Assembly: GCA_964017235.1 (NCBI GenBank)
Contig: OZ024929.1
Coordinates: 28,455,464-28,519,463 of the forward strand
Reading direction: 5' to 3'
DNA from: Sabellastarte sp. h YS-2021
Taxonomy: Eukaryota > Annelida > Polychaeta > Sabellida > Sabellidae
Length of the DNA stretch: 64,000 bases
Of this stretch, positions 21,201-60,832 are shown in pieces. Made by a program: the position numbers and the translations under genes. Numbering within the stretch: the stretch's first letter is position 1; every line of letters begins with the position of its first letter. Below the pieces are notes generated by a model. It had not been told where the DNA came from and did not search any database. It was given only the letters and a program-made list of their open reading frames with translations.

Positions 21201-21284
21201 CCTCTAACTGTGCAATGCTCCCTTTGGGAGGTTTATTTCTTGGGACTGAACTCATACCCCTTTTCCCTAACCTCAGAGCAGGTA

Positions 21285-21773: not shown

Positions 21774-21845
21774 CAATTTTCTTATAACTTGAGTTTTGAC
21801 CTGAAACTTTTGTCTCAGACTGTAGTCAAAATTTTGGCAAATTTT

Positions 21846-38900: not shown

Positions 38901-39685
38901 GGCAGGTGGTATCCTGGGATGTCTGTGTATTAAGTCAACCAGGAGGTTGCCAGCTGTAGAATCATTTTTCTGGTCTTTGAAGTATCCAGGGCATAATCCA
39001 GGGGTTTAGTGGCTTTCTTCTTCTCCTGGGGACTGACTGTGGCTGTGCTGCTGGCTGTAGGGTAGGTGCTGGTCCCGAGTTCAGATCTGTCCTTTTATGT
39101 CGGCAAATCATGATGAAAATCAAAATGTTAAACTCAGAAAAAAAAAAAAAAAAATAGAAGTACTCTAAGCTTATGTAGAAAGTCTCTGATGCGTAGCTGG
39201 CATCTTTTGAAGTGACAAATGTTTTTCGACAGCCAGAGGGGGTTTATATAGTTTTGGTTCGATCCCAATTCTGGATCTCGACTCCAGGAATCAGTTCAGT
39301 CGTGATGAGTCGGGAAGATGCTCAAGTCCTGTTGGTTTGTCATTACGTCTTGTCTTTTAGGGCTTGTCACTGTAGTTTCCCATCTTTTCATGGAAAGAAT
39401 CATCCTGACCCCAAGTCAAGTTGGCATCTTGATCCAGACAAGCCGGGGTGTACTACGTCCTGTTGGGGAGATGTAACCAACCCAACATTTTCACACACTT
39501 TTTATGGAGTCTGGTCCTCAATCCCCAGCTTTTACAAGTGACCCTAGAGTTTTAGAGTCAGTTATAGGGTCAGTTCCACAGGAACACACCCATATAGATG
39601 ACTAAAATATGCCATACATTTAGATGGATTCATCTGAAGAATTATTATAACTTCTTTATTTCTTCATCATATCTTGGCACTTTAT
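38901..39685. other. Non-coding stretch with poly-A tract
   Basis: A run of about 17 A is at 39,139-39,155. The minus strand upstream of the Harbinger transposase (38,820-39,010) keeps open reading in places and may be its degraded N-terminus, but I cannot align it. The 109-codon plus-strand frame at 39,212 shows no features. Confidence 0.4.
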
Positions 39686-39811
39686 TTTTATTGCGTTAAT
39701 ACATCCTATCCAATGGACAATTTGCCAAACCGGTCGGCGCAGACCGGCCCGCCAAACGCCAGAAAAAGACGTCCTGTGTTTCCACCGGCTGGCCGGTCCG
39801 TAGTACTAGTA

Positions 39812-40207
39812 CACTCCCCAGATGGCGTGTCGTACTTCCTTCCTGTCTAGATAACATGTACTGTGCAGACGTGTTTTCAACATCTCCAGATATTTTAAGG
39901 AAAAGTGTGCATTATGACGGATTTTCTACCTTATTTGCAAATAATTTATTGTAGAAGTGTTACCTACATATCAAGCACGGATATACATAAAGAAATCTGC
40001 TGGAAACGCACTCCCCAGATGGCGTGTCGTACTTCCTTCCTGTCTAGATAACATGTACTGTGCAGACGTGTTTTCAACATCTCCAGATATTTTAAGGAAA
40101 AGTGTGCATTATGACGGATTTTCTACCTTATTTGCAAATAATTTATTGTAGAAGTGTTACCTACATATCAAGCACGGATATACATAAAGAAATCTGCTGG
40201 AAACGCT
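39812..40207. repeat. 197-bp tandem duplication in the left end of DIRS D
   Basis: CACTCCCCAGATGGCGTGTC begins at 39,812 and again at 40,009. The 197-bp units, ending TCTGCTGGAAACG, look identical by eye. Because the rest of D is old and diverged, this duplication must be recent, or else be an assembly duplication. Confidence 0.9.
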
Positions 40208-40499
40208 CCCTAGCTGACTCAATTTAGTGTTGATGATAGGGCAGTAGGACGAGAAATATGAATTATGAAGGCAGCCATTTTGCCAGTTTCCTCCCATTCA
40301 ACCTTGTGTTGTTAGGGGCAGATCGACAATATTAAGGAAATAATGGATATACTACTTATAGGTTTTTTTATCTGTGTCTTTTGTTGAATGTACCTTCGGT
40401 AACCTTCCAGTTTTTATCACCATAGAAACATATTTTCTAGTACTACAAATAAAATCACGGACAACTTCAATCTACGTTGTTTTGATCACTGTTTTAAGG

Positions 40500-41393
40500 A
40501 ATCCCCTTAGAAGAGGTGCATTCTTCAGAGCGCACTGGTACCGACTTCTCTGCTGTAAAGCATCAGTCACACCAGCCTAGCTCGAGTATTTGGTGTTTTT
40601 CATCAGAACTTCATATCTACGACATAGAAGGAATTTCATTTTCAATCACTCTCAGTCCCACCCTTGTGGACCCGGCCCTTGTGTTGGTAATAAGGGCAGT
40701 GGATGGCCAGGACACTGGTTTGAGTGCACAGCCGGCTGAGAAGAACCGACTTCAGACCGCCACCGACCAGGACTTTCATCTTCAGAGTGCACTGGTTCAG
40801 GCTTCTCTGCTTTTAAGCATCAGCCGACCGACCAGCTCAAAAGAACGCGACCTCTGACGTCATATTCTACACGAAGCTGGTCACGTGATTCACCGACCAG
40901 GTCACGAAGCTGATCATGTGATTCACCGAACAAGAAGGTCGGAAGTGCGCTCTTTGTGCTCACGTCTACTGTGATTCCAGTTTTAGTTCCTGAAATTCAC
41001 CTCCAGAGCGCACTGGTACAGACTTCTCTGCTACAAGCATCAGTCGACCAGCCAGCTCACGTTTAACCGGCAATTCTTTCTATACATTGCTACTGGGTTC
41101 TTCACAACTTAAGTCTACTGTGATACCAGTCCCTCTCTCATGGACCTGGCCTTTGTTGTCAGTAGTGGGGTTTGTGGATGAGCAGATTACTGCGCATTTG
41201 CCTGTTTAAGTGTCACACAAAGAACGCGACCACTGATGTCGTCTTCAATCAGCCAATCGCATGTCCTTCTGACCAGCAAGCTGGTCACGTGACACGCCGA
41301 CCAACAATTGCTTCTAAAAATAGCTCACAAGGGCTTTCCCAGCAACTGTCAAATCTTCAAATAAGACGTGGGTTTAAAAGAAATACTTTAATT
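40500..41393 (+). pseudogene. DIRS D, gag-derived mosaic
   Basis: CCCTTGTGGACCCGGC, GGGCAGTGGATGGCCA and GCCGGCTGAGAAGAA match the gag-like part of element C (24,068-24,165). Around them, a phrase like GAGCGCACTGGTACCGACTT followed by CTCTGCT and AAGCATCAGTC occurs three times (about 40,527, 40,786 and 41,005). It looks like a shuffled, duplicated gag remnant with no intact coding. Confidence 0.5.
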
Positions 41394-41436
41394 ATATCCC
41401 CAGACGAAAGTCGGGGATATATTGGATTCAGGTCCG

Positions 41437-41438
41437 TC

Positions 41439-41489
<51 letters not shown>
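41437..41489. repeat. (CCG)n microsatellite
   Basis: About 17 uninterrupted CCG triplets next to the terminal hairpin. It produces a spurious poly-proline open frame on the plus strand. Confidence 0.95.
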
Positions 41490-41490
<1 letters not shown>

Positions 41491-41979
41491 AGAAATTTCC
41501 TTGTGGACGCGATAACTCAAAAACAAATTAATATTTTTTTTTCAAACTTGGTACACATGTTAAGGGTGCCCAAAGGAAGATCCCTATTTTAAGGTGACCT
41601 TAAACTCCCAGTAAAAAAGAACTTATGGCCACCTTAAGGTCAGAAATTGGACTTTTGGCCACTTAGAGCCCTGTAGGTCACAAACTATGATGCTCAGCTG
41701 GCTGAAATTTTACCTGACAACACATTAATATGTTCTTAGTACATGTGCCGAAAATCACGACTTTAAGTTGAGGAGAAAATTGTGTTTGAGGCCCATAAAT
41801 ACCCCCACTTGGGGATTTTTTGCTATACTTTTCACATATTTTGCCCTATAATTTGGAAGTGGTAATTCTGATGAGTCTCAAACTGCGCTAGGTATAACTT
41901 TGATATGTAATCCTTGTCTGTAGAAAATTTTAGGGCTGTAGGTTTACCCAAAGGGGTCGACTTAAGGTCTCAAAAGTGC

Positions 41980-43410
41980 CCACAGAGACCCAATTTATGC
42001 ACTTTTTGCCACTTTCAAGCACTGTAGCTTTCAAACTATGTCTCTCATCTAAGTTAAATATCATCTGGGAATATATCTGTGTGTTTTCTTATATGTGCCC
42101 CAACATTTAGGCCTTTAATAGACAGTTAACCTGTGTATCAGGACCATAAACACCCACCCGAGTGACCCTTATAAGACATTTTTCACATCTTTTTCCCTGT
42201 AACTTGGAAATGGTAAGTCTGAGAAGTTTCAAACTGTATTAGATATATATTCTGTGTGTAATCTTAGTATGTAACAGATTTTAAGTCTGAAGCTTTAATT
42301 TTGAAGGTCAAATTGAGGTCTCTAAAAGGCTCCCAAAGACCCAATATTTGGACTTTTTGCTACTTTTAAGCCCTGTGACTGTCAAACTATGTGACTGATA
42401 GAGCTCAAATCCTATCTGGGAAGATATTAGTATGTTATTTATATATGTGCCAAAAATTAAGGCTTTAAGAAGACATTTAACCTGTGTATGAGGACCATAA
42501 ATCCCCACCCGAGTGACCATTTTTAGACATTTTTCACATATTTTGCCCTGTAACTTGGAAATGGTAAGTCTAAGAAGTTTCAAACTGTATTAGATGCATA
42601 TTCTATGTGTAATCTTAGTATGTGACAAATTTTAAGTCTGAGGCTTTAATTTGAAGGCCACATTTAGGTCTCTAGAAGGCCCCATAAAGACCCAGTATTT
42701 GGACTTTTTGCCAATTTTAAGGCCTGTGACTGTTAAACTATGTGACTGATAGAGCTGAAATCTCATCTGGGAATACATTATTATGTTCTTTTTACATGTG
42801 CCAAAAATCAAGGCTTCAAGTAGACATTTAACCTGTGTATGAGGACCTTAAACACCCACCTGAGTGACCCTTTTAAGACATTTTTCACATATTTTGCTCT
42901 GTAACTTGGAAATGGTAAGTCTGAGAAGTTTCAAACTTTATTAGATACATATTCTATGTGTAATCTTAGTATGTAACAAATTTTAAGTCTGAAGCTTTAA
43001 TTTGAAAGCCACATCGAGATCTCTAAAAGGCCCACAGAGACCCAATATTTGGACTTTTTAACCACCTTTAAGCCCTGTGACTGTTAAACTATGTGATTGA
43101 TGGAGCTGAAATCCCATCTGGGAATGCATTATTATGTCCTTTTTACATATGCCGAAAATCAAGGTTTTTAGTAGACATTTAACCTGTGTATGAGGGCCAT
43201 AGACACTCGCCCAAGTGCCTTTTTGGACATTTTTTCCGTATTTTGCCCTGTTATTTGGAAATGCTTAGTGTGACAAGTCTTAAACTGTATTATATATAAT
43301 TTTTGTTTGTTATGTATGTCCCCCAAAAAGTTTCAGATCTGTTGTTTAATTGCTAAGGTCTCTTTAACAATTGTAAAATGCCCACAGAAACCCAATTTAT
43401 GGACATTATG
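41980..43410. repeat. Tandem array of about 351-bp units
   Basis: The anchor phrase GACCCAATATTTGGACTTTT and its variants occurs at about 41,987, 42,337, 42,689, 43,039 and 43,391, so spacing is 350-352 bp. Each unit also has CCTGTGACTGTCAAACTATG, ACCTGTGTATGAGGACCATA and CTTGGAAATGGTAAGTCTGA. Units differ by roughly 5-15 percent by eye, with the outer ones more diverged, as expected for an ageing array. Confidence 0.85.
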
Positions 43411-44213
43411 CCACTTTAAAGCCCAGTAACTGTCAAACTATGTGGGTTATAGAGCTGAAATCTTTGAATTTTTAAAAGGAAATGCCTGTCTATTTAAATT
43501 TTGAATATTAATAATGTTATGGCTATCTTAGTCTTTTAAGAACTTATTTTTGTGTGTTATACCTCTGCTTGCTGAGTTTTTAACTTTTTAAAATGAAACT
43601 GGTTAAACATATTCAAGTAGACAAAATGGACACTTTAAGTGAGCTTTAAGTCCCAATATTAATGAAATTATATCCTTATGTAGTAAAAGTAGGGGATTTT
43701 TAACCCTCAACTAGCCCAGTTTTATTCAACTTGCCTCAGTTAATTTTGACACAGCTCCTACAGTTATGAACTCATTTCAGTTGATAATCACATACTTAAA
43801 ATTCTCAATTCTTTTTGTATTTGAGTACCCCTTTTATATAGATTGTTTGTTTACCATTTATGCATCCCCCACCCGGATTCCCCCCACCCACCTCTGGGAC
43901 CTCCAGCTATATTGAGTGACACTAAATAAACAAAGGTATTTAATGATATCAGATGAGAAACAAAGAACTCAATGGGGTTGCAGATCTTGTGTAATAGTGA
44001 GAGAGGTGTGGAGAAGGGGAGAGGGGTGGGGGTGGGAGGTGGTGGGCTTCATTACATATAACACAAAGGGGAGTCAGAACTGAGATTGTGTCACATATTT
44101 AGGTTGCATATATATGGACCACATATATAGGTATAGAGGAAATGAATAACTGAAAACAATTTGCAAATTCTAAAAATAATATAATAAAATAATAATATAA
44201 ATAATTTTTTTTT

Positions 44214-44450
44214 AAATAATATTTTATTTGTGAACAAATATAGAAACAGATATGCGCTTTTGGGATTATGAATTTTAGAATGGACATTGAATCATCAATC
44301 ATTTAAATACTTTGAAGGAAGATTGAAAAGTATGATGAGTTGAGTTAAAAATAATATTTTATTTGTCAACAAATATAGAAACAGATATGCTCTTTTGGGA
44401 TTATTATTTTAGAATGGACATTCAATCATCAATCATTTAAATACTTTGAA
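44214..44450. repeat. Direct duplication, about 100 bp, 136 bp apart
   Basis: ATATTTTATTTGTGAACAAA...GGACATTGAATCATCAATCA at about 44,217-44,313 is repeated at about 44,353-44,450 with few changes. It lies in the right part of the hairpin-ended element, outside its 351-bp array. Confidence 0.75.
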
Positions 44451-44739
44451 AATAGGTTTAGAGTTATCATTGCAGGAAGATTGAAAATATAATTTGAGTT
44501 ATGTATTCGGCGTCTGGGGATACACCATCTTCCTTGGAAGATATAAACAGAGTAGATTGATGTGCTGAAGTTCATATAATAATGGGTAATTATGTTTTAA
44601 AAAATTCCCGATCAAAACCTGTGGCGTGAGTGATGACCTGTCTGGGGATATGTTGGCGCCGAGTTGGCCCAATCTAGTTAATAAAGGAAACGCTCAGTAA
44701 GCTGAATTTCAACACAAGATAGTTGTTAACTTGCGTTAG

Positions 44740-45490
44740 CAACTGGTTACAGAGTGTACCGACCGGGTACTGGGTATACACAGCCTTGTACAGTTGTTTC
44801 AACAACTGGTTACAGAGTGTGCCGACCAGGTACTGGCTACACAGCCTTTGTACAGTTTACCCGCCCCCCCAACTGGTTACAGAGTCATCTGACCCAGTCT
44901 ATTCAACCCTGTGTTGATTGTGGGGCAGGTAAACAGCTAGTATCTACAAGATATGGCTTCAACCGACTGGTTACAGAGTCTACCGACCGGCCACACAGCC
45001 TGCACTGAACAGCTTGCTTCACATTAACCGGTTACAGAGCCTGCCTATTACCAACCAGCCCCAAGAATCACCAACCCAAAGGTCTTCTACCAGCTGGCCA
45101 CTCCTCATCAGCAGCCTATTCACCGGCCTAAGACTGATGACAGGCCTAATAATGTATAGTCCCTGACAGGAAGTTTTTTCCTACACAGAAACTACTTCAA
45201 CTGGTTACAGAGCTCACCAACCGGTTACCGGCTATACAGTCTTCACTGAGCAGTTTTGCTTCACACCAGCTGGTTACAGAGTCTACCGACCTGCTATCAG
45301 GTGCAATTACTGTCTTGCCCCCTGCTTCAATACCGGTGTCAGAGGACCGACCAGCAGACCCACCTGGGGATCACCTAGTTAGTAGACCATAACCAAATTC
45401 AGTGGTCAGCCTAGCCTACCAGCTTTACTGGTTACAGAGTATCACAGGCTTCAGAGAATTGCTGTGGCCAAAATTGCTGGTTACAGAGAA
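44740..45490. repeat. Irregular cluster of GGTTACAGAG repeats
   Basis: The word GGTTACAGAG occurs nine times, usually as (A/G)(C)TGGTTACAGAGT followed by (C/G)TACCGACC. Spacing varies from about 50 to 170 bp. The cluster lies in DIRS D just before its polymerase part, where the gag-like part would be expected. Short plus-strand frames here are by-products of the repeat. Confidence 0.8.
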
Positions 45491-45779
45491 AACAAATGGG
45501 TCTTGTACAGCAAGAGAAAAGGTGGTCCATACTCAAACAAGTTTTCATTGTGTCTGGTCAGGGGTCAGCCATCATACAAATGACAATGTGTACATGCCCC
45601 ACCTTACAGGCTTCTGGCCCGGGGCCAAGAGTCGGTAAAATGTGAAAAGTTGTTTCAGCCCCACCGGACTGGACCACAGCAAGAACAGATGGACTGTTAA
45701 CTGTTCATTGTCACCAGGCCATACCAGTGTCCAGAGAGACAGTAAATGTTTCTTTCAGCCTACTTAATGTCCCAAATAT

Positions 45780-47470
45780 TGCACTTGAGTTTACCTGAAG
45801 GGGTCAGACTATATCACCTTTTGGAACTTAGGAAACCTTGGGAGCTGGACCCTAGGTAGTGCAATTTTGAAGGAGGGCTACACCCTCCCTTTCAAGTTCA
45901 GACCAGGCGTACAAGGAACCAGAACATCATAAGCTGCTTTGTCAATCCCCACAGGAACCTCTACTGGTCGCAGACATTGCATCAGCTTATGGACAAAAAT
46001 TTAAAAAAAAAAAAAAAATGGAGACACCGGAAACCATCAGAACCTCCCTCCAACAAGGGGAGTGGGTTACCTCTATAGTTTTCAAGGATGCCTACTTCCA
46101 TATACCAGGACAGGAACAGTCCACGAAATATCTGAGATTTCATGTCCAGGGCCGGACATACCAATTCAAAGCTCTGCTTTTCGGTCTGTCCGCAGCACCC
46201 TTGAAGTTCACTGTAATAACAAGGAGGCAAAACTGATGGCCATACACAAAGGTATAAGAATCCACCAGTACCTAGTCGACTGGTTGGTTAGAGATGCATC
46301 CCACCAGGTTTGTCTCCAGCATACACTAGATTTGGTGAAAATATGCCAAGTATTAGGTTGGCTGGTGAATTTAAAAATTGGAACTGGAACCAAAAGCAGG
46401 TCTTCGACCTTGTAGGTTACCAGTTCGACCTCATGGCCGGTCGGGTCTGACCTATACCGGACCGTTGGCAGAATCTTCAGGACAAAATACTAGAAATACT
46501 GTCACTACCAGTTTGTCCAGTCCAGCAGTTCATGTCTGATAGGTTTACTAACAGCCACAGGAAAGCAAGTTCACCTAGGCCGACTTCATAGGAGACCCAT
46601 ACAGTGGCATCTCAAAAACAACTGGAGGGTACCAGAGTCACTAGAAAAGGTGATTCCAATACCCACATTTACAATGGTGGTTGCAAGAGGACAATGTCCT
46701 TACAGGCCAACCATTACACCAAAATAAAACATGATCTGCAAATTTTTTACAGATACATCAAAAGCAGGGTGGGGCGCTCACTTAAACGAATGCACTGCAA
46801 GAGGCACCTGGTCCCTTCCGGAAAGCAAGTTGCATATCAAGTACCTAGAACTCAAGGCAGTCTTTCTAGCCTTACAAGAGTTCCAAGACCTCTGCATACA
46901 CAAGATAGTACTTGTAGAGACAGACAACACCACAGTGGTGTCTTACATAAACAGGGAAGGAGGCATGAGGTCGGGCCCACTTTGTGCTTTACTATGGAGA
47001 ATCTTGACCTGGTGCACCAGAAATCAAGTAACTCTAAAAGCCCGACACATTCCAGGCCGGCTGAGTGTGGTCGCAGACAAACTATCCAGACTAGACCAGA
47101 CCACCCAAACAGAGTGGTCTCTCCTTCAGGAGGTCTTCCAAGCAATATGCAACAGGTGGCACCGGCCTCAAATAGACCTATTTGCCACGAGGTTCAACAA
47201 CAAGTTGCCTTTGTTTGTGTCACCGGTACCGGATCCCCTGGCCACAGCAGTGGATGCGCTCAGTCTGTCATGGTAGGATCAGGAAGCATGCACCTTCCCA
47301 CTATCGGCCATATTGGGCAAAGCGGTGATGTTGCAGGACTCCCCATGCAAGAGAATCATTCTGATTGCTCCGGGGTGGCCCAACATACCTTGGTTTTGGG
47401 ATCCAGTGGCCATGCCCAGCCAAATCCCACTGAGCCTGCCCAATCTGCCCAACCTGTTGACACAACCATT
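45780..47470 (+). pseudogene. DIRS D, polymerase part (RT / RNase H / methyltransferase-like)
   Basis: RT, RNase H and methyltransferase-like landmarks shared with A and C are present in order (for example IRIHQYL, TDNTTVVSYIN, IDLFATRFNNKLP and APGWPNIPWFWD). Badly broken fossil, many breaks. Confidence 0.75.
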
Positions 47471-47499
47471 CAATCAGATCCCTCACAGAAATCTGACAA

Positions 47500-48590
47500 A
47501 CATTAATCTCGATGCACGGCTCCTGGAGCCTCAGCATTCGAGGAGCAGGGCTTCGCTGAGGCAGTGGCAGCAAGAATTGAGGCTTCTCAAAGGGGATCAA
47601 CCAGATCAGTCTATGAGGCAAAGTGGACCATTGTTACAAGTGGTGCGTCACTAATCAGGTGGACCTCAGGGTACCCCTGTAAAGTCAGTTGCTGACTTCC
47701 TTATGTACCTTATGAGGACAGGAAGCTACAGCCCAGCACCATGGATGGTTACAGTTCAGCCATTGCTGATAAACTGGGAAATTCACCCTTCAACATCAGC
47801 AAGGACAAAATCTCGCTTGTCTCCTGGATAGTTTCCACAGAGACAGACCCAAAGGCAGGAGGGGCATACCCTCCTGGAACCTCTCACTGGTCTTGCACCA
47901 GCTGAATAAGGCTCCGTTTGAACCAATCAAGGAGGCCTCCTTGAAGCATTTGACCTTCAAGATGGTATTCCTCTTGGTCCTTGGGTCGGGCAAGCACAGA
48001 AGTGAGATTCATGCTTGGCAAAACCAAAAATATTAGACACCAATCCGATTGGTCAACGGTGTCCCCGTATCCATTACCCAGCTTTCTATCCAAGAATCAG
48101 CTGGCCAAGAGGGTCCAGACAGTGTGGCCCCAGTGGTTATAACAGCCCTGGCCCCCATCTCTGGATAGATCCCTCAAGTCTGGCTGGTCCCTTTTTTTCC
48201 AGTTAGAGCATTGCGCTACTATTTGGACAGGACCTCAGACCTCAAGTAGAATAAGGAGGTGGTTTTTGTCTCCTTTAAGAAAGGTTTCGACAAAGACATC
48301 CGCCTCTATCTCCTCTTAGATCAAGCAGACTGTGATCCTATGTTATGAGCTCTCTGACCAGGAGGCCCACTCTTTACATCAGGTTAAAACCCATGATGTC
48401 AGGGCCTTTGCTGCTCCTAAGGTCTTCCAGTCGGGAGTCTCCTTAGATCCAATCTTGTCAGCCTGCCACTGAAGTCACATAATACCCTCACACAGTTCTA
48501 TCTGAAGGGTGTGGCTTGGGCTGACTCGAAGCTTTACCAATTGGGCTCGGTATGGGCTGCTCAGCAGATCCACAGGTGGCCCTTAGATTG
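47500..48590 (+). pseudogene. DIRS D, tyrosine recombinase part
   Basis: The nucleotide text follows the recombinase parts of A and C almost to the end (GGTTTCGACAAAGACATC, CATGATGTCAGGGCCTTTGC, CAGCAGATCCACAGG). Badly broken. The 3' region of D continues only after element E, at 60,143. Confidence 0.65.
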
Positions 48591-48924
48591 AGGAGATTTG
48601 TATATATGTACATAGTATAAACAGTTTCTACATGTACATAGTAAACAAGAGGAGAGTGCCCGTGAACGGGCACTGTGTCAGCTGACTGAGTGTTTTTGAT
48701 TTGTGAAGGTGATTAGAGGACAGAATAATTATCAGGAAAAGGGCTGTACAGAAATACAGTAAATGGTAACTGAACAGCAAGTTCGAAAGAAATTCCGAAG
48801 CTGACAGAAGAAAAGGATAAAAAAGTTGTGCCCTGTAAATGGTATTATGAAGGAAAATAACAAGGTAATTGTTTAAGTGTAAAAAATAGGTTAAAACATA
48901 TTTAAAGAAATACTACAAATGCAA

Positions 48925-49500
48925 TATCCTCGTTCGACCTTGAAGAAGGGGTCCAAGGTCAAATCTAACCACACAAATACATTCCCAGCCCATGAATTCC
49001 TATGGTTTACCATTCCAAACCTCTAGGACCAATTATAAATGAGTTATAAGCACTTTTAAGCTTGGCTGTCCTCATTTGACCTTGAAGGAGGGGTCCAAAG
49101 GTCAAATCTGACCATACCAAAAGATTCCGAGCCAATGATTTCCTATGGGATGGTTTACCATCCCAAATCTCTGTCACCAATAATAAGCGAGTTGTAGGCA
49201 CTTTCAATTTTCGCTATCCTCATTTGACCTTGGAGGGTTCCAAGGTCAAATCGGACCATATCAACAGATTCACAGCCCATGATTTCCTGTCTGTTTACCA
49301 TCCCAAACCTCTGGGACCAATAATAAGCGAGTTATAAGCACTTTTAAGTTTGGCTATCCTTGTTTGACCTTGAAGGAGGGGTCATTGAAGGTCAAATCTG
49401 ACCACACCAAAAGATTCCCACCCCATGATTTCCTACAGGTTGGTTTATCATCCCAAACCTCTAGGATCAATAATAAGGGAGATATAAGCACTTTTCATGA
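48925..49500. repeat. 146-bp minisatellite (type T1) in element E
   Basis: Four units anchored on TTTGACCTTGAAG(A/G)AGGGG followed by CAAGGTCAAATCTGACCA, with ACCAATAATAAGCGAGTTAT near the unit end. The same unit forms the array at 62,119-63,300. Confidence 0.85.
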
Positions 49501-49639
49501 CTGACAAAAAACACCTGTGGCGGCCATCTTGTTTCTCAAAATGAGGCCAAAAATATTCCCAGACAACATTTTATGGTTATTAATATATACTGCAAACTTA
49601 AGAAAGCTAGCTATAATATTTTTTTTCATCAGAGCAGTA

Positions 49640-50437
49640 ATGGTGAAATCTCTCTCTACACACTGCGGCTATCCAGTGGATACAATGATTTACTCAACAG
49701 TGAGAACCTGAAAGTAGCTATTGCTCAGCTATGCCATGACATAGAGGTCTGCAATTTCACTATGTTATAGCTGACCAAAAATTCTGTGAATAACATATTT
49801 AACAAATTACTCTAAATGTAATAGTTTTCAAGTTACAACTGATTTACTCAACAGTGAGAACCTCAAAGGAACTATTACTCAGCTATGCAATGAGCTACAT
49901 GTCTGAAATTTTACTATGTTATAGCTAACCCAAAAGTAGGTGAACAACATATTTAAGCAAACTACTGTAAATGCAATAGTTTTCAAGCTACAACTGATTT
50001 ACTCAATAGTGAGAACCTGAAAATAGCTATTGCTCCGCTATGCCATGAGCTATAGGTCTGTAATTTCACTATGTTATAGCTGACCCAAAAGTAGGTGAAC
50101 AATATATTTTAACAAAATACTCCAAATGCAATATTTTTCAAGTTATAGCTGATTTACTCAACAGTCAGTACCTGAGAATAGCTATTGCTCAGTTGTGCCA
50201 TGAGCTATAGGTCTATAATTTCACTATGTTATAGCTGACCCAAAAGTAGCTGAATAACATATTTGCACAAATTTCTGTAAATGCAATAGTTTTCCAATTA
50301 TAACTGATTTACTCAACAGTGAGAACTTCAAAGTAGCTATTACTCAGCTATGAAATGAGCCACAGGTCTGAAACTTCACTATGTTATAGCTGACCCCAAA
50401 ATAGGTGAATAACATATTGAAACAAAATACTCTAAAT
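49640..50437. repeat. 155-bp minisatellite (type T2), left part
   Basis: Five units anchored on GATTTACTCAACAGTGAGAA, with CTATGTTATAGCTGACCCAA and AATGCAATAGTTTTCAAG. Spacing is about 150-158 bp. The array stops at CTCTAAAT (50,437), where DIRS element F begins, and resumes with GCAATAG at 58,906. Confidence 0.88.
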
Positions 50438-50800
50438 TTGGAAATTTTAATTACTTAAATGTAGCTTTTATAAGCTACAAGCTTACCATGTGGGACTTAA
50501 TGCTGATCTCGGGTTGCCACACCCGGGGCCAACGTCTTAGAAAAAAAGATCGTTCTTGTTAGCCACCGGATATACTGGTAGTTGTCGTCACGTGATAACT
50601 TCTGACCAATCGTCCTACTTTCTCGTTGAAATTTTTTAAACCTACCCCTCAGCTGTAAACAGCGGGGAGGCAGGGTGGGACTCTTCTAAGTCCCACATGG
50701 TAAGCTTGTAGCTTATAAAAGCTACATTTAAGTAATTAAAATTTCCAATTTTATTACGCTACAATAGCTTACCATGTGGGACTTAATGCTGAATTCAACC
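50438..50800. repeat. DIRS F, 3' inverted terminal repeat and internal complementary region
   Basis: The outer end TTAAATGTAGCTTTTATAAG is found complemented at about 50,705-50,740. That block runs straight into TTTTATTACGCTACAATAGC, the complement of the opposite end of the element at 58,885-58,905. The internal region thus contains the junction of both ends, the DIRS-1 arrangement. Confidence 0.88.
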
Positions 50801-51212
50801 GCCTGGTGGCGGGATTACAGCTGAGACTGGAAGATATGTCATTTTTTCTAAGATTTTGAATTAATATGAATAGAATAGTGCCAGAAATACCAGTCTGAGT
50901 CCCATTTACAGTGCCCCGATCACGAAGGCCGGGCCTGTAACGAGCCAAAAACCTAAGAAATTGAGAGACAGTGCTAAAACTGTCTAGATGTTTTATTGTA
51001 GGACGGAAGTGTAGCAGTGCTCACTCCGAGGTCTGAGGGTCCAAAAGGGCCCTTCACGTGTGACTGACCAACCCAGTGGTTGGGCATCTCATAAAATTTT
51101 TTACAACTTGAAAATGAGATTAATGACAACTAAATAAGTCCTTAATAGAAATTACTTGATAATTAGAGGATAAAATGACCTTACCCGTAACATCTTGAAG
51201 GTAAAGGAATAC

Positions 51213-52400
51213 CTAGATCCTGGGAAAGACTCCTGAAGACTTGGTTGTAGCGGATGTGCCCCCCCCCCCCCCCCCCCCCCTTTTTTCTTTCCGAGGACAA
51301 CTGGTCTGAGGGGAAGGATCTAGGACTTGTTGAGCAGCCACTACGGGTCCCAGGTACAAATTGTTGTCGGTGTCCGACCAAGTAAGGTCTTTTAGGTAAA
51401 AATTTGTAAATGTGTTGTGAGCTTTCCAGTGACAGGCTTGCATGATTTGGTCCACCGATACCCCACCGTAAAAGGCCTTAGAGGCCGCGAAGGCCCGGAT
51501 GTCATGCGCTTTGACTTGGACCAAGTCCAAGGCTTGTTGATCTGCTTGTTTGTAACAAAGTAAAATGGTTTGTTTCAACCATGAAGCGAGTGTAGCGGGT
51601 CTGATGTCTGAGGTATGTCCTTTCTTAAAGGAGATGAAAAGGAGAGAACGAGACCCTCTCAGGTCTTTAGTTTGGTCCAAATAGAACCTCAGGGCCCGCA
51701 CGGGACACAGGGTCCTGTCTTCTTTAAACTGTCTATCTACAATGGTAGTCAGAGCAGGAATAGTCACTGGTGACACACTTTGAGAACCTTCTCTTGCTAG
51801 TTGGTTTTTGGCTATGAAATCAGAAGAAGGGAACAAGGCGACCTTTTCCCATTGGCCTAAATTAGCTACTTTGTTAGCGACCCAGGCATGGATTTCGCTG
51901 CGGCGCTTGCCGGAGGCCAAGGCTAGCAAGAAAGCAGTTTTTAAAGTGAGATGTTTGAGGTCTGTGTCTTTCATGGGCTCAAAAGGTGCTTTGGTGAGCT
52001 CGTTAAGGACAACAGAAAGGTTCCACTTGGGTAAGTTTCTGGAACTTTTAGGACGATCCCTGTGAAAACTGGAGAGTAACCTATGAAGGTCTGCATTGTG
52101 TGCAATATGTTGGGCCGTTGGGCCCAAAGTGTCAACGATTGCAGTCCTGTAACCATCAATGGTCGAGGGGCGCCTGTTAAGGTCTTGGTACAGGTACATG
52201 AAGAAATCTGAGATTTGTTTCACAGATGGAGTGGAGAAATCCACCGAATTTTCTCTGCACCATTTTTCAAATAGGGCCCACTTTGACTTGTAGATGGTCC
52301 TTGTTGATGACCGCTGAGGGGCAGCAATTCTCTCTGCCACCTCCACAGAGAAGCCTTGTTCTTGGAGTTGTCCGCTCCTAGACACCAGGCGTGGAGGTTC
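51213..52400 (-). CDS. DIRS F, tyrosine recombinase
   Basis: About 395 codons of recombinase. Landmarks are ERIAAPQRSSTRTIYKSKWA, the KRRSEIHAW arginine box, the VKAHDIRAFAAS box and HNTFTNFYLKDL with the likely catalytic tyrosine. Near the C-terminus a poly-glycine run is encoded by the 22-base C tract on the plus strand (51,259-51,280). The gene overlaps the end of the polymerase part in another frame, as is common in DIRS elements. Looks open. Confidence 0.8.
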   Translation of the reverse strand, partial: EPPRLVSRSGQLQEQGFSVEVAERIAAPQRSSTRTIYKSKWALFEKWCRENSVDFSTPSVKQISDFFMYLYQDLNRRPSTIDGYRTAIVDTLGPTAQHIAHNADLHRLLSSFHRDRPKSSRNLPKWNLSVVLNELTKAPFEPMKDTDLKHLTLKTAFLLALASGKRRSEIHAWVANKVANLGQWEKVALFPSSDFIAKNQLAREGSQSVSPVTIPALTTIVDRQFKEDRTLCPVRALRFYLDQTKDLRGSRSLLFISFKKGHTSDIRPATLASWLKQTILLCYKQADQQALDLVQVKAHDIRAFAASKAFYGGVSVDQIMQACHWKAHNTFTNFYLKDLTWSDTDNNLYLGPVVAAQQVLDPSPQTSCPRKEKRGGGGGGGTSATTKSSGVFPRI

Positions 52401-54526
52401 AGGTGCTGGGGGTTGTTGTGGAACACCAGCTTGTGGGACTGCTTGAGTAGGGTTGTTGACACTGGGAGTTGCAGTGGGATCTCTGTTGAGAGCTGCACTA
52501 TGTCCCAAAACCAGGGCATCCCTGGCCAGCCTGGGGCTATTACGATGATCAGGCACTGGCATTGCCTGATCTTTTGGATCACCTTGTGAAGGAGAGCCGT
52601 AGGAGGGTACGCATATGCTGTGAGGTTGGTCCAGTTTATGTTCAGAGCATCTATGTCCCAGGCCCTTGGGTCTGGGATAGGAGACACGTATAGAGGGAGT
52701 TTGTGGTTCAGGTGAGTGGCAAATAAGTCTACATGAGGTGTGAACCACTTCTGGCAGATCTGTTTGAAGACCTGTGGGTGCAGAGACCATTCGGTTGACT
52801 GCACTTGGTTGGACCTGGATAGCAGGTCGGCCATCACATTCAGGCACCCTGGAATGTGCCTGGCTTTCAATGTTATGTGATAGTGATGGCACCAGGTCAT
52901 GATCTTCCACAGGAGAGCACACATCTCTGCCGAGTGTGTTCCCCCTTGTTTGTTGATGTAGGCTACCACTGTTGAGTTGTCCGTCGCAACCAACACTGTT
53001 TGATTCTGGCACTGGTCCTTGAAGTCTCGAAGGGCCAGGGAGACCGCCTTCAATTCTAGGACATTTATGTGAAGCCTTTTTTCCCGATCTGACCACAGAC
53101 CCTTGGTAAAATTTTGGTCTAAGTGAGCGCCCCAACCTTCGTTTGAGGCGTCGGTAAAGAGTTGGATACTGTGGTCTTTGGGATGAAGGTCTGCACCTGT
53201 CATCACATTGGAGGGATTTTGCCACCAATCTAGGTGGGCTGCAATGGCTTCTGTCCAGGGAAGGAGGTTGTCCAGCGACTGAGGATATCTCCAGTGCTCC
53301 TTGAGGTGAAACTGAAAGGGCCTCATGTGAAGGCGTCCCTCCGGGACCATTTTCTCCGTTGAGGCTAGCAACCCAATTAGAGACATCAAACATCTTGCAG
53401 TCAAAACACGTTTTGACTTGAGTTGTAGGATCAAATCCTGAAGCTTGAGCCATCTCTCTTGAGTGGGTTTTACAAGGGCTGAATCTAGGTGGTATTCGTA
53501 GCCCACGAACGAGAACACCTGTGTAGGTTTCAGTTCTGATTTTTCCTGATTTATTATCCACCCCAAGGACTGAGTCAGTTCTACTACTGCCTGAGTGTTC
53601 ACTTGGGCTTCCTCCTGAGACTGGGACCTGATCAGCCAGTCGTCCAGGTATTGGTGAATTCTGAGTCCTCTTGAGAGGGCCATTAGCTTCACCTCCTTTA
53701 CAATCATGGTAAAGACCTGGGGGGCTGTGGCTAGTCCGAACGGGAGGGAGGTGAACTGGAACACCTGAGCCTTGTAGCAAAACCTTAGGTATTTCCTTGA
53801 GCTTGGGTGGATGGGGATATGCAGGTAGGCGTCTGACAGGTCTATCGACGCTACCCACTCCCCTGGAATCAGGGAGGTCCTGATGGACTCTGGAGTTTCC
53901 ATTTTGAACTTTTCTACGTGTAGAAAAGTGTTGAGCCTGCTTAAGTCTATGACTGGCCTCCACCTTTGGTGAGGCTTGGGTACTAGGAACAGGCGACTGT
54001 AAAACCCGAGAGATTTTACATTGTCTACCCTTTCGATAGCATTCTTTGACAGGAGGGACTGGATACAAGTAGCCAAGGCTTGGTCTTTTTGTTGGGCCTT
54101 GTACTCTGACAGAATCAGAGGAAATCTGATCAAGTTTGGCTTTGAACGGAATGGCAGAACGTAGCCATTGGTGATAATGTTTAACACGTTTTGAGAACAT
54201 TTGTTTGTGAGCCAGTCTCTCCTGAAAGAACGGAGGCGACCTCCTACTGGTGGACTGAGTGAGGCTTTGGAGGAGTCATTGGGGAGGGGGATTTCCACGC
54301 CCCCTTCCTCTATTGTGGGGTCGAAAACGACCCCTGAAGCCTCTGAAGTTGGATTTTCCTCTTCCCGAAGGAAAGGACTGGTTACTGCTTTGAGAGCTAT
54401 TGCCCCCATAGGGGCGTTTCCTGTAGGAGCCTCTTTTCTTGTGGGGACCACGAAAGGGCTTATTCTGGTAGGGTGTAAAACCCTGAGAATCTTTTGAGGT
54501 GCCTTTTTTGAGAAGGAAGTCCTCAC
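52220..54526 (-). CDS. DIRS F, reverse transcriptase / RNase H / methyltransferase-like
   Basis: About 768 codons. RT landmarks are RWRPVIDLSRLN, ASIDLSDAYLHIPIHP, LPFGLATAPQVFT and YLDDWLI. RNase H follows (LFTDASNEGWGAHLD, ATDNSTVVAYINK, RHIPGCLNVMADLLSR), then the methyltransferase-like segment (VDLFATHLNHKLP, APGWPGMPWFWD). The full DIRS domain order is present and the frame looks open. Retroelement polymerase, not a host gene. Confidence 0.85.
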   Translation of the reverse strand: MRTSFSKKAPQKILRVLHPTRISPFVVPTRKEAPTGNAPMGAIALKAVTSPFLREEENPTSEASGVVFDPTIEEGGVEIPLPNDSSKASLSPPVGGRLRSFRRDWLTNKCSQNVLNIITNGYVLPFRSKPNLIRFPLILSEYKAQQKDQALATCIQSLLSKNAIERVDNVKSLGFYSRLFLVPKPHQRWRPVIDLSRLNTFLHVEKFKMETPESIRTSLIPGEWVASIDLSDAYLHIPIHPSSRKYLRFCYKAQVFQFTSLPFGLATAPQVFTMIVKEVKLMALSRGLRIHQYLDDWLIRSQSQEEAQVNTQAVVELTQSLGWIINQEKSELKPTQVFSFVGYEYHLDSALVKPTQERWLKLQDLILQLKSKRVLTARCLMSLIGLLASTEKMVPEGRLHMRPFQFHLKEHWRYPQSLDNLLPWTEAIAAHLDWWQNPSNVMTGADLHPKDHSIQLFTDASNEGWGAHLDQNFTKGLWSDREKRLHINVLELKAVSLALRDFKDQCQNQTVLVATDNSTVVAYINKQGGTHSAEMCALLWKIMTWCHHYHITLKARHIPGCLNVMADLLSRSNQVQSTEWSLHPQVFKQICQKWFTPHVDLFATHLNHKLPLYVSPIPDPRAWDIDALNINWTNLTAYAYPPTALLHKVIQKIRQCQCLIIVIAPGWPGMPWFWDIVQLSTEIPLQLPVSTTLLKQSHKLVFHNNPQHLNLHAWCLGADNSKNKASLWRWQRELLPLSGHQQGPSTSQSGPYLKNGAEKIRWISPLHL

Positions 54527-54654
54527 CTTCCTTCACTAATTGAGACTCGAACAAGGAAGGGCCCCAAAAGGACGAGTTCCTGAGTTCTTGACGTCTCGTT
54601 TCTCCTAATTGTGGATGTAATAGAGTCATTTCGGCTTCGCGCCTGAGCAATTCT
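54276..54654 (-). pseudogene. DIRS F, gag-like part, C-terminal piece
   Basis: Continues the gag-like part after the LINE insertion. It begins around LLRREAEMTLLHPQLGETRR and ends in a basic Arg/Gly-rich tail (GRGKSNFRGFRGRF), as in the gag of element B. Confidence 0.75.
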
Positions 54655-56730
54655 AATTCTAATTGGACTTTTATAGCGCTTAATCTCCCCAAACAAGAGG
54701 ACTCTAAGGCGCAACAAAACAAAAAGCAGTCAACAAAATTCTGTGTCCAGGGACATAACAGGGGTCGAACACCACGGAGAACGCCAGGAGGATGATTCAG
54801 GCTAGGGTGGATATGCTTTGGTGTACAGGTAGGTTTTAAGCTGTTTTCTGAAGGAGGCCAGGGATGGAGAGGCACGAATCACATCAGGGAGAGTATTCCA
54901 CACAGTAGGAGCATCAAACGCAAAACTATTACCAAACTGTTTGACAGATTTATGAACAGAGGGGCAGAACTTTGGAATAACTAGGAAATTACCACCACTT
55001 TCACTGCGCCTGGTACTATAAGAACTGCTGTAGGAAGAAAGATGTGGTGAAAAATACCTGGGAAAACCTGTGTGAAGATACTTATAAACAAGTGTGACTG
55101 TCTTGAACACAATGCGCTGTTCAACAGGAAGCCAATGCAGTTTCTTTAGCACAGGAGTTATGCTGGTGTATCGACTGGTGTTTGATACAATTCTAGCTGC
55201 ACTATTTTGGATGCACTGTAATTTGCGTAGATTGAACTTGGACAGGCTCCTGAAAAGTGAGTTGCAGTAATCCAACCGACTACTAACAAGAGCGTTGGCT
55301 ACAAGCACAGAAACATCATGAGTAAGAAACCGCCTGACATGTCTGAAGTCACGGAGTTTAACAAAACAACTTTTGCAGACATTCTGAACATGCTTGGACA
55401 AAGAGAAATCTGAATCAAGCCACACACCCAGATTTTTTACTGAATCTGCAGGGCAGAGTGAGTTGCCCAGGATATCAATTGGAAAACATGCTTTCAACTT
55501 ATCCCTTTGTCTCTTCGAACCAAAGATGATAAACTCAGTCTTATCAGGATTCAGTTTGAGCTTACTAGTTGTCATCCACTCTTTAACATCATTTAGGCAC
55601 TTATTTAGCTTTTCAAAGGCAGCAGATGCATTCTTCTGGAATAAATGTACATAAAGTTGGCTATCATCTGCATAGAAATGAAACTTTATTCCATTATGTT
55701 TACTGATAATGGAACTGAGGGGGGTGGTGTACAATGAGAACAACAAAGGACCCAGGACAGAACCTTGGGGAACACCAAATAGGAGTTTACAAACATCTGA
55801 CAAAGTAGAACCAATTTTTACTGATTGGTAACGGTCCATTAGGTAGGATGTGAACCATTTCAGAACGGAGCCACTGACCCCAAACCAGTTTTGGAGGCAA
55901 CCCAGAAGAGTAGAGTGATCAATGGTGTCGAAGGCAGCAGACAAGTCAAGCAATACCAAGGCAGTGGATTCACCTCTTGACAATGATAAGTGAACCTCAT
56001 TTTTTATGTAGAGAAGAGCAGTCTCAGTTGAATGGCCCGCCTTATATGCCGACTGGTACGGGTTGTCTAAGTTATTGGTATTAATATGTTCTAACAGCTG
56101 CTTAGCAACCACACGTTCTACCAATTTAGATATAAAACTGAGACCTGATACAGGGCGATAATTCTTAAGGTCATTTGAGGGAAGATTTGGCTTTTTAATA
56201 AGTGGAGTGACCACAGCAGATTTGAAGGCATCAGGAACGCATCCCTCCATGAGTGAGCAGTTGACCAGCTTTGTAAGGGATGGTAGCAATATATCAATGC
56301 ATTCCTTAATCAGGAATGTCGGCAGAGGGTCCAACAGGCATGATTTTGTTGGTGATGCTTTAATTATTTTATCAACAGCATCTTCAGAAACTTGCCTAAA
56401 GACAGTAATTTGGGGAGGATCTGAAGGAGGGTTAACATCATATTCAGTGCCAGAAGAAGCAAAATTATCTCTAATCTTCTTGATTTTGTTGGTGAAGAAG
56501 GAGGCAAACTGGTCAGCCAATGACTTTTCGGACTCATGAGATGGAAGTGTGGCATCAGAAACCCTGTTCAGGGTCTTATGGAGCTCACGCCAAAGTTTTC
56601 GAGAGTCATGACTATTGTCGGAGATCAGTTTGCTATAATAGTCTGATTTATCATTATTTACAAGTGCATTGCACCGAGCAATCTGGCGACGAAGCCTACT
56701 CCTGTTAAGTGTACTTTTAGGAAGCCGGTA
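54655..56730 (-). mobile_element. CR1/L2-like LINE, 5'-truncated, inside the gag-like part of DIRS F
   Basis: Minus-strand reverse transcriptase, open from the 5' truncation near 56,730 to the stop at about 54,802, roughly 640 codons. Motifs in order: LPSNDLKNYRPVSGLSFISK, AYKAGHSTETALLY, LLDLSAAFDTIDH (catalytic Asp), GVPQGSVLGPLLFSLY, YADDSQLY (catalytic Asp pair), SRLDYCNSLF, and a C-terminal AFDAPTVWNTLPD region, all typical of CR1/L2-type LINEs. The apurinic endonuclease domain is absent because of 5' truncation. The 3' UTR contains GCGCTATAAAAGTCC and ends in an AATTAG-type simple repeat. No clear target duplication is visible. The intact remaining frame indicates a recent insertion. 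Confidence 0.88.
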
Positions 56731-58514
56731 TTAGCCATAGAGTATAATTCCCTCTGCAAAATATGGGCTAGAGATTTGCTGAGACAAGTGAGGGCCCTGT
56801 GTTGAACAAGTACTGTCTTGTTCCAAAAATCTAAGTAGTCAGCTACTTCCTCATATCCGCGCTTTGCCGCTTTCTCAGGATTGGCACCTTTCTGAATCTG
56901 AGACTTTATCTTCTTGACCGTAGACTTGATGCTATGTTGGCATTTTTCCAATGAAGCATTGCAAGAAGAGGAGGTTTTGGCAAATGCAGCGGTGAAGTTG
57001 AGGGTAGAAATATTTTGTCTAGCCTGGAGTTCTAGCTCCTTGAGAACTGGCAGGGGAACTCTGGCTACTGGGGGCCCAGAAGGTCTAGGAGTAATACAGA
57101 TCTTAGCAAAGTCCGTATTCAACTCCTGAATTTTGTCCTGAAAAGTTGGTTGTCCCACCTTGTACCACTTTGAAGTTGAGGGAGGAGGCCTGACATATTT
57201 TCCCTCAGATAAGTTGGCAGCCTTAAAGTCATGTTGGAATTTATCAAAGGCGTCCTTGATAACTGAGCTAAGTGGAAGAATAGAGGAGGGACCTCTAGGT
57301 CTGAGCTCTTGACGGCCTTTTTCATCATCCAGACCCAACACTGAGGTGGACGACCTGGGCATAGATTCCCTGGGGTCAGGGAGAGACAAAATACGCCTGA
57401 AGGTGTCCACTTCTTCAGAGTATTGTGAGGGCATGTCAGACAAAGCTACTTCCCTATAATAAGGGGGGTCTGGATCATGTTGTGGTAGGTCTTGATCAGA
57501 AGCTACTCCTGAGGGCTGAGCCCTAGAGGGCTTAGAAGACCTGTGTCTGGTTTCAGGGGAGTGCTCCTCCTCTGAGGTAAATGACACGTATCTAGATCTT
57601 GATTTATGTTTGCTCTTGTCAGAGTGTTTTTTGGATCTAGAAGAAGGGATCCGAGGTTCATCGGAATCCTCATTTAGTTGGTCCGAGGCAGAGCTCGGGT
57701 CAACTGGCTGCCTATGGCTTTGCTTTTTGTGAGAGTACGAGACCTCTTCGGGGTGACCTTCAGAGGGGGCAACGTACTGATCCGAGGAAGGTTGAGCAGA
57801 TACTAAACACGGAGGAAGTGCTGGACCGAAGTCCACATCCATATCCTCGCTTGGGATGTTAGTACCAGATCTCGGAGGGGGCAAATCCAGAGGGGCAGCA
57901 GTACTACTGGACAAGCCAGGTTTTGAAGCAGGCAGAGAAGACTCTACCTCGACTTTCTGTTTTGCAGCCAACTCCTCTCGGAGTGACTGAAAAGCTTCCA
58001 ACATGGATGCCTGGAAGGTACCCATTTGCTGCTGTAAATGTATATTTAAGGAATCACCGAGTGATTTCTCTAGGTTTTTCTGGATTTTATTTTGCAAAGC
58101 CGTACCAGGGGTGGGTGGAATAGTTTTAGCTGGCGTTTTCAAGGACAGGGAACTGAAGGCAAGAGGTTGTGGACGGGGGGGTGAAGTAAAAAGGCTATCA
58201 GCAGCACACTCGAGGTCTGCATTGGACCCAGTGAAGGAGTCCCCGTCGCCTTCACCCAAAAGATCTAGTTCATCTTTGGAACTAGTTGTCGCTTTCTGCT
58301 TTTTCAAATACCGTTTCCGGTTTTGGATTTTCTGTAGTTGCTCATCTGTGAAAGACGTGCAAATTTCACAAGGGGTTTCAAAGGTGACACAGGGGTCATC
58401 TCCCTTGCCAGCCTCCCTACAGGTAGGGCAGAAATTATGTGTATCAAAGCTAAAGCAGAAATGGCGGCATTTCTGCGCTCTCGGTTTGTCTTTATTTGCT
58501 TGATGAGACGACAT
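56731..58514 (-). pseudogene. DIRS F, gag-like part, N-terminal piece
   Basis: Starts at the ATG at 58,514. It has a Cys/His-rich N-terminus (CRHFCFSFDTHNFCPTC, CEICTSF), a long Ser/Pro/Glu-rich middle, and a helical part up to LYSMANT at the LINE junction. The Cys pattern matches the gag starts of A and B. Fossil part interrupted by the LINE. Confidence 0.8.
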
Positions 58515-58734
58515 TTTATACGCAATAAAAGACGTACAATGTACTTGCCTGAACCGAGGAAAACTCAAAACACGCGACTGAAGACAAAATACTTATCCTG
58601 TGAAAATTAAAATTTTACAGAATGATCTATGATATATATTACAAGAAATATGCAAATATTAGCCTCCAACAATAAGTAAAGTCTGAGAAATAAATGAAAA
58701 TGTCTGTATATTTACAAACTGCTACCAGTCAATC

Positions 58735-58905
58735 GTGGCCAACGAGAAAGTAGGACGATTGGTCAGAAGTTATCACGTGACGACAACTACCAGTATATCC
58801 GGTGGCTAACAAGAACGATCTTTTTTTCTAAGAGGTTGGCCCCGGGTGTGGCAACCCGAGATCAGCATTAAGTCCCACATGGTAAGCTATTGTAGCGTAA
58901 TAAAA
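58735..58905. repeat. DIRS F, 5' inverted terminal repeat
   Basis: The inverted copy of about 50,480-50,630, including CGAGAAAGTAGGACGATTGG, TATCACGTGACGACAACTAC and CATTAAGTCCCACATGGTAA. By eye the two arms differ at only a few positions, supporting a young insertion. Confidence 0.9.
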
Positions 58906-59740
58906 GCAATAGTTTTCAAGTTATAAGTGATTTACTCAACAGTGATAACCTAAAAGTAGCTATTACTCAGCTATGCCATGAGCTACAGGTCTGAAATTTT
59001 ATTATGTTATAGCTGGCCCAAAAGTAGCTGAATAACATATTTATACGAAATTCTCTAAATGCAATAGTTTTTAAGTTACAAGTGATTTTACTCATGATGG
59101 AAGTTACTGAAAAGCCCAAAAGTAGCTATTACTCACTTAGCTATTGAGACAGACACCCAACTTACTCACCATATTGTAGCTATGAAAAAAGTAGCTGAAT
59201 AACATATTTTAACAAAATGCTCTAAATGCAACACTTTTCAAGTTATAAGTGATTTACTCAACAGTGATAACCTAAAAGTAGCTATTACTCAGCTATGCCA
59301 TGAGCTACAGGTCTGAAATTTTACTATGTTATAGCTGACCCAAAAGTAGCTGAATAACATATTTATACGAAATTCTCTAAATGCAATAGTTTTCAAGTTA
59401 TAAGCGATTTACTCAACAGTGATAACCTAAAAGTAGCTATTACTCAGCTATGCCATGAGCTACAGGTCTGAAATTTCACTATGTTATAGCTGGCCCAAAA
59501 GTAGCTGAATAACATATTTATACGAAATTCTCTAAATGCAATAGTTTTTAAGTTACAAGTGATTTTACACATAATGGAAGTTACTGAAAAGCCCAAAAGT
59601 AGCTATTACTCACTTAGCTATTGAGACAGACACCCAACTTACTCACCATATTGTAGCTATGAAAAAAGTAGCTGAACAACATATTTTCACAGAATGCTGT
59701 AAATGCAACACTTTTGAAGTTATAAATGATTTAGTGCATG
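58906..59740. repeat. 155-bp minisatellite (type T2), right part, with a longer variant unit
   Basis: Continuation of the array at 49,640-50,437. Two kinds of unit alternate: the standard one, and one with ATGGAAGTTACTGAAAAGCC and CTCACTTAGCTATTGAGACA. The variant occurs at about 59,095 and 59,570, so this stretch repeats as a higher-order block of about 475 bp. Confidence 0.82.
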
Positions 59741-60142
59741 ATTTCATGAATTTTAATGCATTAAAAATTATTAAAAAAATTTATTAAAAAAAAAGTAAGA
59801 CAGATCCAGGTCTCATACTCACACAAGAGAATCTACCTCTGGCCTAGTACATATATGCAAGATATGAGAGAAATCCCTGCAATAGTCACTGAGAAAATTG
59901 TGATAAAAAGTTGAAATTTTCACACTTTTGGTGGGGGTACCCCCCTTGTAATGTCTCTAGCAAACAGACGAACAGACAGATTTGCATGCCTTGAACACTT
60001 TTTCATCCTCGATAGATAAGGTATCTTTTAAAAAAAACAGCATGTCTCTAGGCCTTGTAGTTTTGGAGAAGAAGTTGTTCACGCGGACGCCCACGCCGCA
60101 GAGCGATGACATAATGTCAGCTGACTGACAAGTCAGCTGACA

Positions 60143-60760
60143 TAAAAATGTGATGTGCTTCCTTTGGGAGCTTTATTGGCATTCTGGGACTGAACTCATC
60201 CCTCTCTTCCCCCTACCTCAGAGCAGGTCTGTTAAAAAGGGGAGGGGGGGTGACGTCAGTATAGACCTCGGTAACCGGCTGCTGGCAACCGACCATGACC
60301 TTACAGGGTTTCCTGACCTTAAGGTTAACCCAAGCCTGGGCCTATTGGTCTCCTGACAAAGTCAGCCTGGACCGTAGGTTAAAATTTGCTATTGTGAATT
60401 CACATATGTCCCTAGTAACTTACACGCCGACCAAGTGGTAGTTATTCAGCAAATTGTCCATTGGATAGGATGTATTAACGCAATAAAATTGCAAATTTAA
60501 TAAGTAAATTAAATTTTTATAAGTTAATACCCTATCCAATGGACACACAAGACCCTCCCACCAACCCCGCTATCAGTTTACTAGGGGTCTAACAGGTTTA
60601 GACAACGAAAAAGATGCTATGATGTCATGTTGTCTAAGCAGGAAGGAAGTACGACACGCCATCTGGGGAGTGCACTAGTACTACGCCGACCGGTTTAGCA
60701 AATTGTCCATTGGATAGGGTATTAACTTATAAAAATTTAATTTACTTATTAAATTTGCAA
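60143..60760. repeat. DIRS D, 3' region: G tract, internal complementary region, right inverted repeat
   Basis: TGTGATGTGCTTCCTTTGGG and the GGGACTGAACTCATC text match the 3' regions of A and C. A G tract follows near 60,240. AAATTGTCCATTGGATAGGA ... CCTATCCAATGGACAC at about 60,451-60,545 is the internal complementary region, and 60,640-60,760 is the right inverted repeat partner of 39,686. Confidence 0.78.
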
Positions 60761-60832
60761 TTTGTGTTTTATTCCAATTTTATGACTTTAAAGAGCCCAT
60801 AACTCCATTAATATTGACAGTTTAAGGTTACC

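Follow-up and report, generated by a model that had tools for sequence, protein, structure and literature searches.

DIRS1-like retrotransposons are described, in the available part of PMC3266345, as having inverted ends, complementary regions that meet at the junction of a circular copy, and a reverse transcriptase with RNase H. The integration step of these elements is little known; the same source proposes that the circle integrates at an identical 3-bp genomic sequence without target duplication. HINE elements have subterminal inverted repeats, a 3′ palindrome and central satellite-like repeats, and insert at T-rich sites (A-rich on the other strand) with no clear target duplication, as far as the accessible sections of PMC7492417 and PMC4067079 describe them. 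PMC6387122 makes no mention, in those words, of target sites, recognition, nesting or preferential insertion, and the parts of PMC10294476 and PMC8905726 that could be consulted hold nothing on DIRS target sites. No association of a tyrosine-recombinase retrotransposon with a satellite monomer was found in the openly licensed literature, which does not imply its absence from print.

The locus compared here with these systems lies on a 189-Mb contig of the 1.786-Gb genome of Sabellastarte sp., in a stretch of 64,000 nucleotides that was analysed as a whole (the window). Four mobile elements are nested in it: a 5′-truncated LINE in a DIRS1-like element (F), F in a HINE-like element (E), and E in an outer DIRS1-like element (D). 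This four-level nest, proposed in a first-pass annotation made from the letters alone, is real, and its inner junctions are confirmed by uninterrupted host copies elsewhere in the genome; the genome search for such hosts, suggested there as a check, found empty sites for E, for the LINE and for a fifth element, G. All parts of the nest are members of known element kinds. The types first assigned hold for D and F (DIRS) and for the LINE, and E, originally a 'hairpin element', is renamed. Every layer is a high-copy repeat, the usual source of misassembly, and the nest is known here from assembly sequence; even so, wrongly joined repeats and a nest absent from the animal are extremely improbable, since every junction falls precisely on element ends that are found again, independently, in other copies, the host element resumes at the same base on both sides of each insertion, and the window is free of N.

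The outer element D was delimited by its inverted ends, internal complementary region and homology. It runs from 39686 (TTTTATTGCG...) to 60760 (...TTTGCAA) on the plus strand, so that the matching inverted ends lie 21 kb apart, as had been claimed. D-derived sequence remains on the plus strand at about 39686-41391, 44678-48642 and 60144-60760, with G and E between these pieces. The internal complementary region, corresponding to the circle junction and found by self-complementarity, spans 60449-60545 (plus strand) and is complementary to the left end at 40/40 and to the right end at 60/60 bases. The reading frames of D are broken, and one fragment retains RNase H similarity (RVT_3, 1.7e-9). 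With their inverted ends, internal complementary regions and reverse transcriptase/RNase H, both D and F resemble the DIRS1-like retrotransposons as portrayed in the available part of PMC3266345; the two are 67% identical in DNA across 449 bases.

Whether the two ends belong to one D needs separate consideration. The perfect match of the complementary region to both ends was rejected as proof, because these terminal stretches are near-invariant among copies and define the family without proving that both ends come from one element. A comparison of the copies best matched by each end, also raised in the first-pass annotation, gave lists that mostly differ, with one copy (C6:84.40-84.41 Mb) common to both; it was rejected as a one-element test, there being too many near-equal copies, and hardly discriminates because each end has more than 3,000 first-look candidates. 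For the right part of D, the other 39 of the best 40 matches are 93-96% identical over nearly all 417 bases, and the left part is about 80-87% identical to seven fetched copies, with many indels. Because its left part is more diverged and richer in indels than its right part, D may be mosaic, composed of more than one subfamily; the copy in the window also carries a 197-bp tandem duplication. No paralogous empty site for D was present among 40 scored matches to its 300-base left flank, the other 39 of which end at query base 249 or before, and the outermost level of the nest consequently rests on structure. The differing lists, the more diverged left part, the missing empty site and a target that misfits the motif described below would all suit two different D copies that end at 39686 and 60760 as chance neighbours. 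This is quite unlikely, however, for across G and E the pieces of D keep precisely the collinear arrangement of uninterrupted copies, and D minus its inserts measures about 6.3 kb, close to the length of a D-type copy at 23496-29850 (about 6.3 kb). One continuous D is the preferred reading.

That copy is one of two further D-type copies in the window; the other, at about 10557-21783 and about 11 kb long, apparently contains a further DIRS-type insertion. At a different locus (L018), an F-type left end is directly joined to the right end of D. To the left of D, an open frame at 38093-38929 on the minus strand has a DDE_Tnp_4 match just under the curated cut-off.

G occupies about 41392-44677 of D on the plus strand, as judged from empty sites, ends and its 351-bp repeats. 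The left halves of D read through without G in 6/7 loci (L002, L004-L008), and L003 gave no alignment there. A fifth insertion had been placed at 41.39-44.65 kb; the insertion itself stands, and its right end moves from 44650 to about 44677. The 3′ end of G reads TCTAG/T (a slash marks an element boundary or join), an inner complementary repeat lies at 41394 and 44640, and the ends look Helitron/Helentron-like. Nesting dates G relative to D only, and not to E, F or the LINE.

E, with F inside it, extends from 48641 to 60145 on the plus strand, according to empty sites and recurring ends that are uncertain by 2-3 bases. Before E, the sequence of D reads ...TACATAGT(A), and after E it continues with AAAAATGTG from about 60144. 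E had been said to interrupt the 3′ region of D with D resuming at 60,143, and this holds to within about a base: E is absent from 29/29 other fetched D loci (L010-L038), of which 28 are continuous; in the remaining one (L021) a deletion extends as far as the site. A tandem repeat scan located a T1 array with a unit of about 140 bp at 48925-49495, and T2 arrays with a unit of 155 bp lie to the left (49681-50437) and right (58906-59733) of F, all on the plus strand. The right end of E matches its copies at 99% and the left end at 99-100% identity (the other 39 of the best 40). When 20 ends per side were sampled from 40 matches each, every left end began with GTAAACAAG (20/20, with L084 on the other strand) and every right end read CTGACATAA (20/20). 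A host GT was already present before E in the three readable cases, namely D here, E itself (L079) and a G-type repeat (L078), from which the target may be read as GT followed by A-rich sequence.

Subterminal inverted repeats and a 3′ palindrome are both present in E, the palindromic GTCAGCTGAC occurring at 48677, 60116 and 60132. E appears better called HINE-like than a 'hairpin element'. In its subterminal repeats, 3′ palindrome and satellite-like core, it is like Cg_HINE of the oyster (PMC7492417) and DINE-1/HINE (PMC4067079), and it shares with them T-rich sites (A-rich on the other strand); unlike them, so far as the available sections of these papers go, it has a T1 array as well as a T2 array, and its left end is GTAAAC in 20/20 sampled copies. 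At the insertion site, a target-site change of 0-2 bp is possible, masked by an A run. A 2-bp AA duplication could lie within this run, and E might accordingly be read as moving by cut and paste, with inverted repeats and a duplication of 2 bp, instead of as a rolling-circle HINE. That reading is unlikely: E has a single subterminal palindrome on the left and two on the right, as in the HINE pattern, which the satellite core and the A/T-rich target also match. Elsewhere (G000:C11:14285298-14300641), five left ends of the HINE-like E follow one another at intervals of about 3,762 bp, which would fit a head-to-tail arrangement of E copies.

F lies at 50438-58905 on the minus strand, as defined by its ends, self-complementarity and copies. 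It interrupts one 155-bp T2 unit of E, with ...CTCTAAAT ending at 50437 on one side and GCAATAG starting at 58906 on the other, and with nothing lost and nothing duplicated; the junction is as first described. Its inverted ends and an internal complementary region at the circle junction (50687-50792), together with an open frame with Pfam matches to reverse transcriptase and RNase H (52220-54532; RVT_1 1.2e-19, RT_RNaseH 7e-6), are those of a DIRS1-like element, both features being on the minus strand. Target-site duplication is absent, both in the window, by comparison with T2 units, and in 25 two-ended copies, as in the DIRS1-like retrotransposons covered by the accessible part of PMC3266345. 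A frame region at 51213-52379 (minus strand) has a weak tyrosine-recombinase similarity below thresholds (Phage_integrase E 0.013; Cre/Tre E 0.28), and its fold prediction from the single sequence was unusable (pLDDT 37.5). Methyltransferase matches also fell below the cut-off (Dam E 0.3, PCIF1 E 0.0088). The first frame (56722-58592, minus strand), split by the LINE, is gag-like by position only and has no Pfam match. Over a 501-bp stretch of F, the other 39 of the best 40 matches are 99-100% identical, four of them tied with the top score of the window, and the right end matches at least 39 other places at 203/203 bases. By these figures F is young.

The LINE, recognised by its reverse transcriptase match and by empty sites, is 5′-truncated and occupies about 54649-56721 on the minus strand. 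It splits the gag-like part of F, as had been proposed, and is missing from 29/29 other F loci (L039-L068 apart from L042, which is the window); the uninterrupted sequence is exact in 27 of these and shows small variants in two (L059, L067). The LINE and its flanks share TT at most. Its reverse transcriptase is of the non-LTR type and matches LINE-1 ORF2 and R2 chains; with its 5′-truncation and a short tandem tail, (AATTAG)n of varying length in 20/20 sampled copies, it resembles non-LTR retrotransposons of the LINE-1/R2 type. It may belong to an L2/CR1-like clade. For its 3′ part, the other 39 of the best 40 matches are 100% identical. At two other loci (L196, L206), LINE 3′ ends adjoin sequences like T2 and like the left end of E. 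In the window itself, a second F-family fragment, comprising the right end and complementary region, lies at 60829-62112, about 70 bp past the right end of D, and is followed by T1-type repeats at 62122-63296.

The nesting upholds the relative order D, E, F and then the LINE that was read from it originally, and the identities to the closest copies rise in the same order: 93-96% for the right part of D, about 99-100% for E, 99-100% for F and 100% for the LINE in DNA searches. These figures refer to the best 40 matches per search, the window included, out of thousands of candidates; with the closest copies picked from so many, they reflect the youth of the families and not the dates of insertion, and F and the LINE are inseparable by identity. 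Five transposition events probably built the region. D integrated first, and the rolling-circle E, bearing its T1 and T2 satellite arrays, then entered the 3′ region of D. The recent F next joined a T2 unit of E, and the LINE landed in the first frame of F; G inserted in D as a separate event. This whole explanation, in which the landing of F in E was a preferred target and not a random hit, has a probability of roughly 0.85.

The preference can be examined in the targets of other copies. The set for F consists of the right flanks of 39 other copies and the stretches expected at the left end, with both ends available in 25. To the left of the join, A stands at -10, -9 and -8 in 18/25, 19/25 and 19/25, and to the right, T stands at +2, +3, +4 and +12 in 38/39, 39/39, 28/39 and 26/39; among targets without T2-like flanks, T is still found at +12 in 22/35. 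Control positions in the same flanks have A in 5-11/25 on the left and T in 7-16/35 on the right, the highest being +20 and +22 (16/35). The first base of the right flank is variable: among the first 100 on the list of 403, it is A in 52, T in 30, G in 16 and C in 2. Partial symmetry exists about the join, -9/+12 and -1/+4 being mirrored, and +11 and +13 are not raised. In the right flanks of D (25/30 loci matched, window included), T at +2, +3 and +12 reaches 92, 92 and 68%. The F target thus described (A from -10 to -8, then NTT where the ends join, and T at +12) resembles the circle junction of F itself.

A matrix was built from F flanks, 21 on the left and 31 on the right, after T2 flanks and the DIRS-derived targets L109, L117 and L157 had been removed; the outcome is the same whether these three targets are kept or removed. 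It scores the circle junction of F at 11.1 and that of D at 9.9, and the fractions of 34,892 background positions that are as good are 1.4e-4 and 3.4e-4, respectively. When E was scanned, the top 14 of 5,960 positions all fell in T2, nine at site A (TATTGC/ATTTA; three in the register of the window and six shifted by one base) and five at site B (TAATAGCTAC/TTTT). The F target in the window scores only a moderate 4.6, with 0.6% of the background as good, and the D target in the window misfits the motif (-10.5, with 41% as good). F is also found inside the complementary region of D (L109 and, judged from the right flank alone, L157) and next to the left end of D (L117). The sequence TTTTG(T/A)GTTTTTG(C/T)C, which lies in another repeat, is a common target of one D and three F copies (L014, L111, L124, L154).

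Genome-wide, the right end of F occurs at 403 places (control 6; counted with a 16-base pattern and one further restricted base), and at 35 places, window included, T2 site A comes straight after it (control 0). Site A itself occurs 117,867 times (control 0), which, with units of 155 bp, would amount to 1% of the genome or more, a lower bound because the matches are exact. It might be argued from this abundance that F is in T2 merely because T2 is common, with no preference for sites. This is very unlikely, since about 403 uniform insertions would give about 0.013 site A matches, a rough expectation because the patterns behind the counts differ slightly, and 35 right ends are observed, all at a single position of the unit and on one strand; among the first 100 listed of the 403 right flanks, nine are site A and one is site B. 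For the wider F group, 5,830 left ends were counted; the first 100 on the list include 48 internal junctions, which were dropped, and the remaining 52 include two at site A and five at site B-like sequences. For 20 of the 35 site A places the other end was sought, and it was found for 15: 11 have exact site A, three have T2 with a base change and one is an internal junction. One left flank is common to four places (L208, L215, L217, L224), and some of the 35 may be duplicates and not independent insertions.

A preferred step from E to F is the reading favoured here. We infer that the recombinase chooses sites resembling the circle junction: the weakly recognised tyrosine recombinase of F would join the circular copy to sites that mimic the end-to-end junction of the circle. 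Since the T2 unit carries such a junction-like site, HINE-borne satellites would serve as landing pads. Counting against this reading are the misfit of the D target in the window and its missing empty site, the moderate fit of the F target there, the partial symmetry, the T-rich control positions, the weak recombinase similarity and the possible duplicates among the 35 places. F differs from the DIRS1 model in PMC3266345, as given in the available part of that paper, in that the first base to the right of the join varies where the model has identical 3 bp, and in having a wider target motif with a satellite unit as a hot spot. Set against the identical trinucleotide that this source asks for, what is new is the target rule together with the satellite landing pad. 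In its most specific form, in which a DIRS1-like recombinase picks mimics of the circle junction of about 22 bases, like attP/attB sites, that are carried by a satellite unit spread by HINE elements, we lean only slightly towards the proposal.

Nested elements are common in repeat-rich genomes, and the nest is a clean worked example and not a surprise. If the targeting proposal is true, HINE activity laid more than 100,000 landing pads that were used by a recent DIRS burst, and the occurrence of this motif in D as well points to an older rule common to both elements. The proposal links the spread of satellites by rolling-circle elements to the landing sites of retrotransposons, and hundreds of near-identical young DIRS copies, together with many unoccupied targets, make DIRS integration measurable from sequence.
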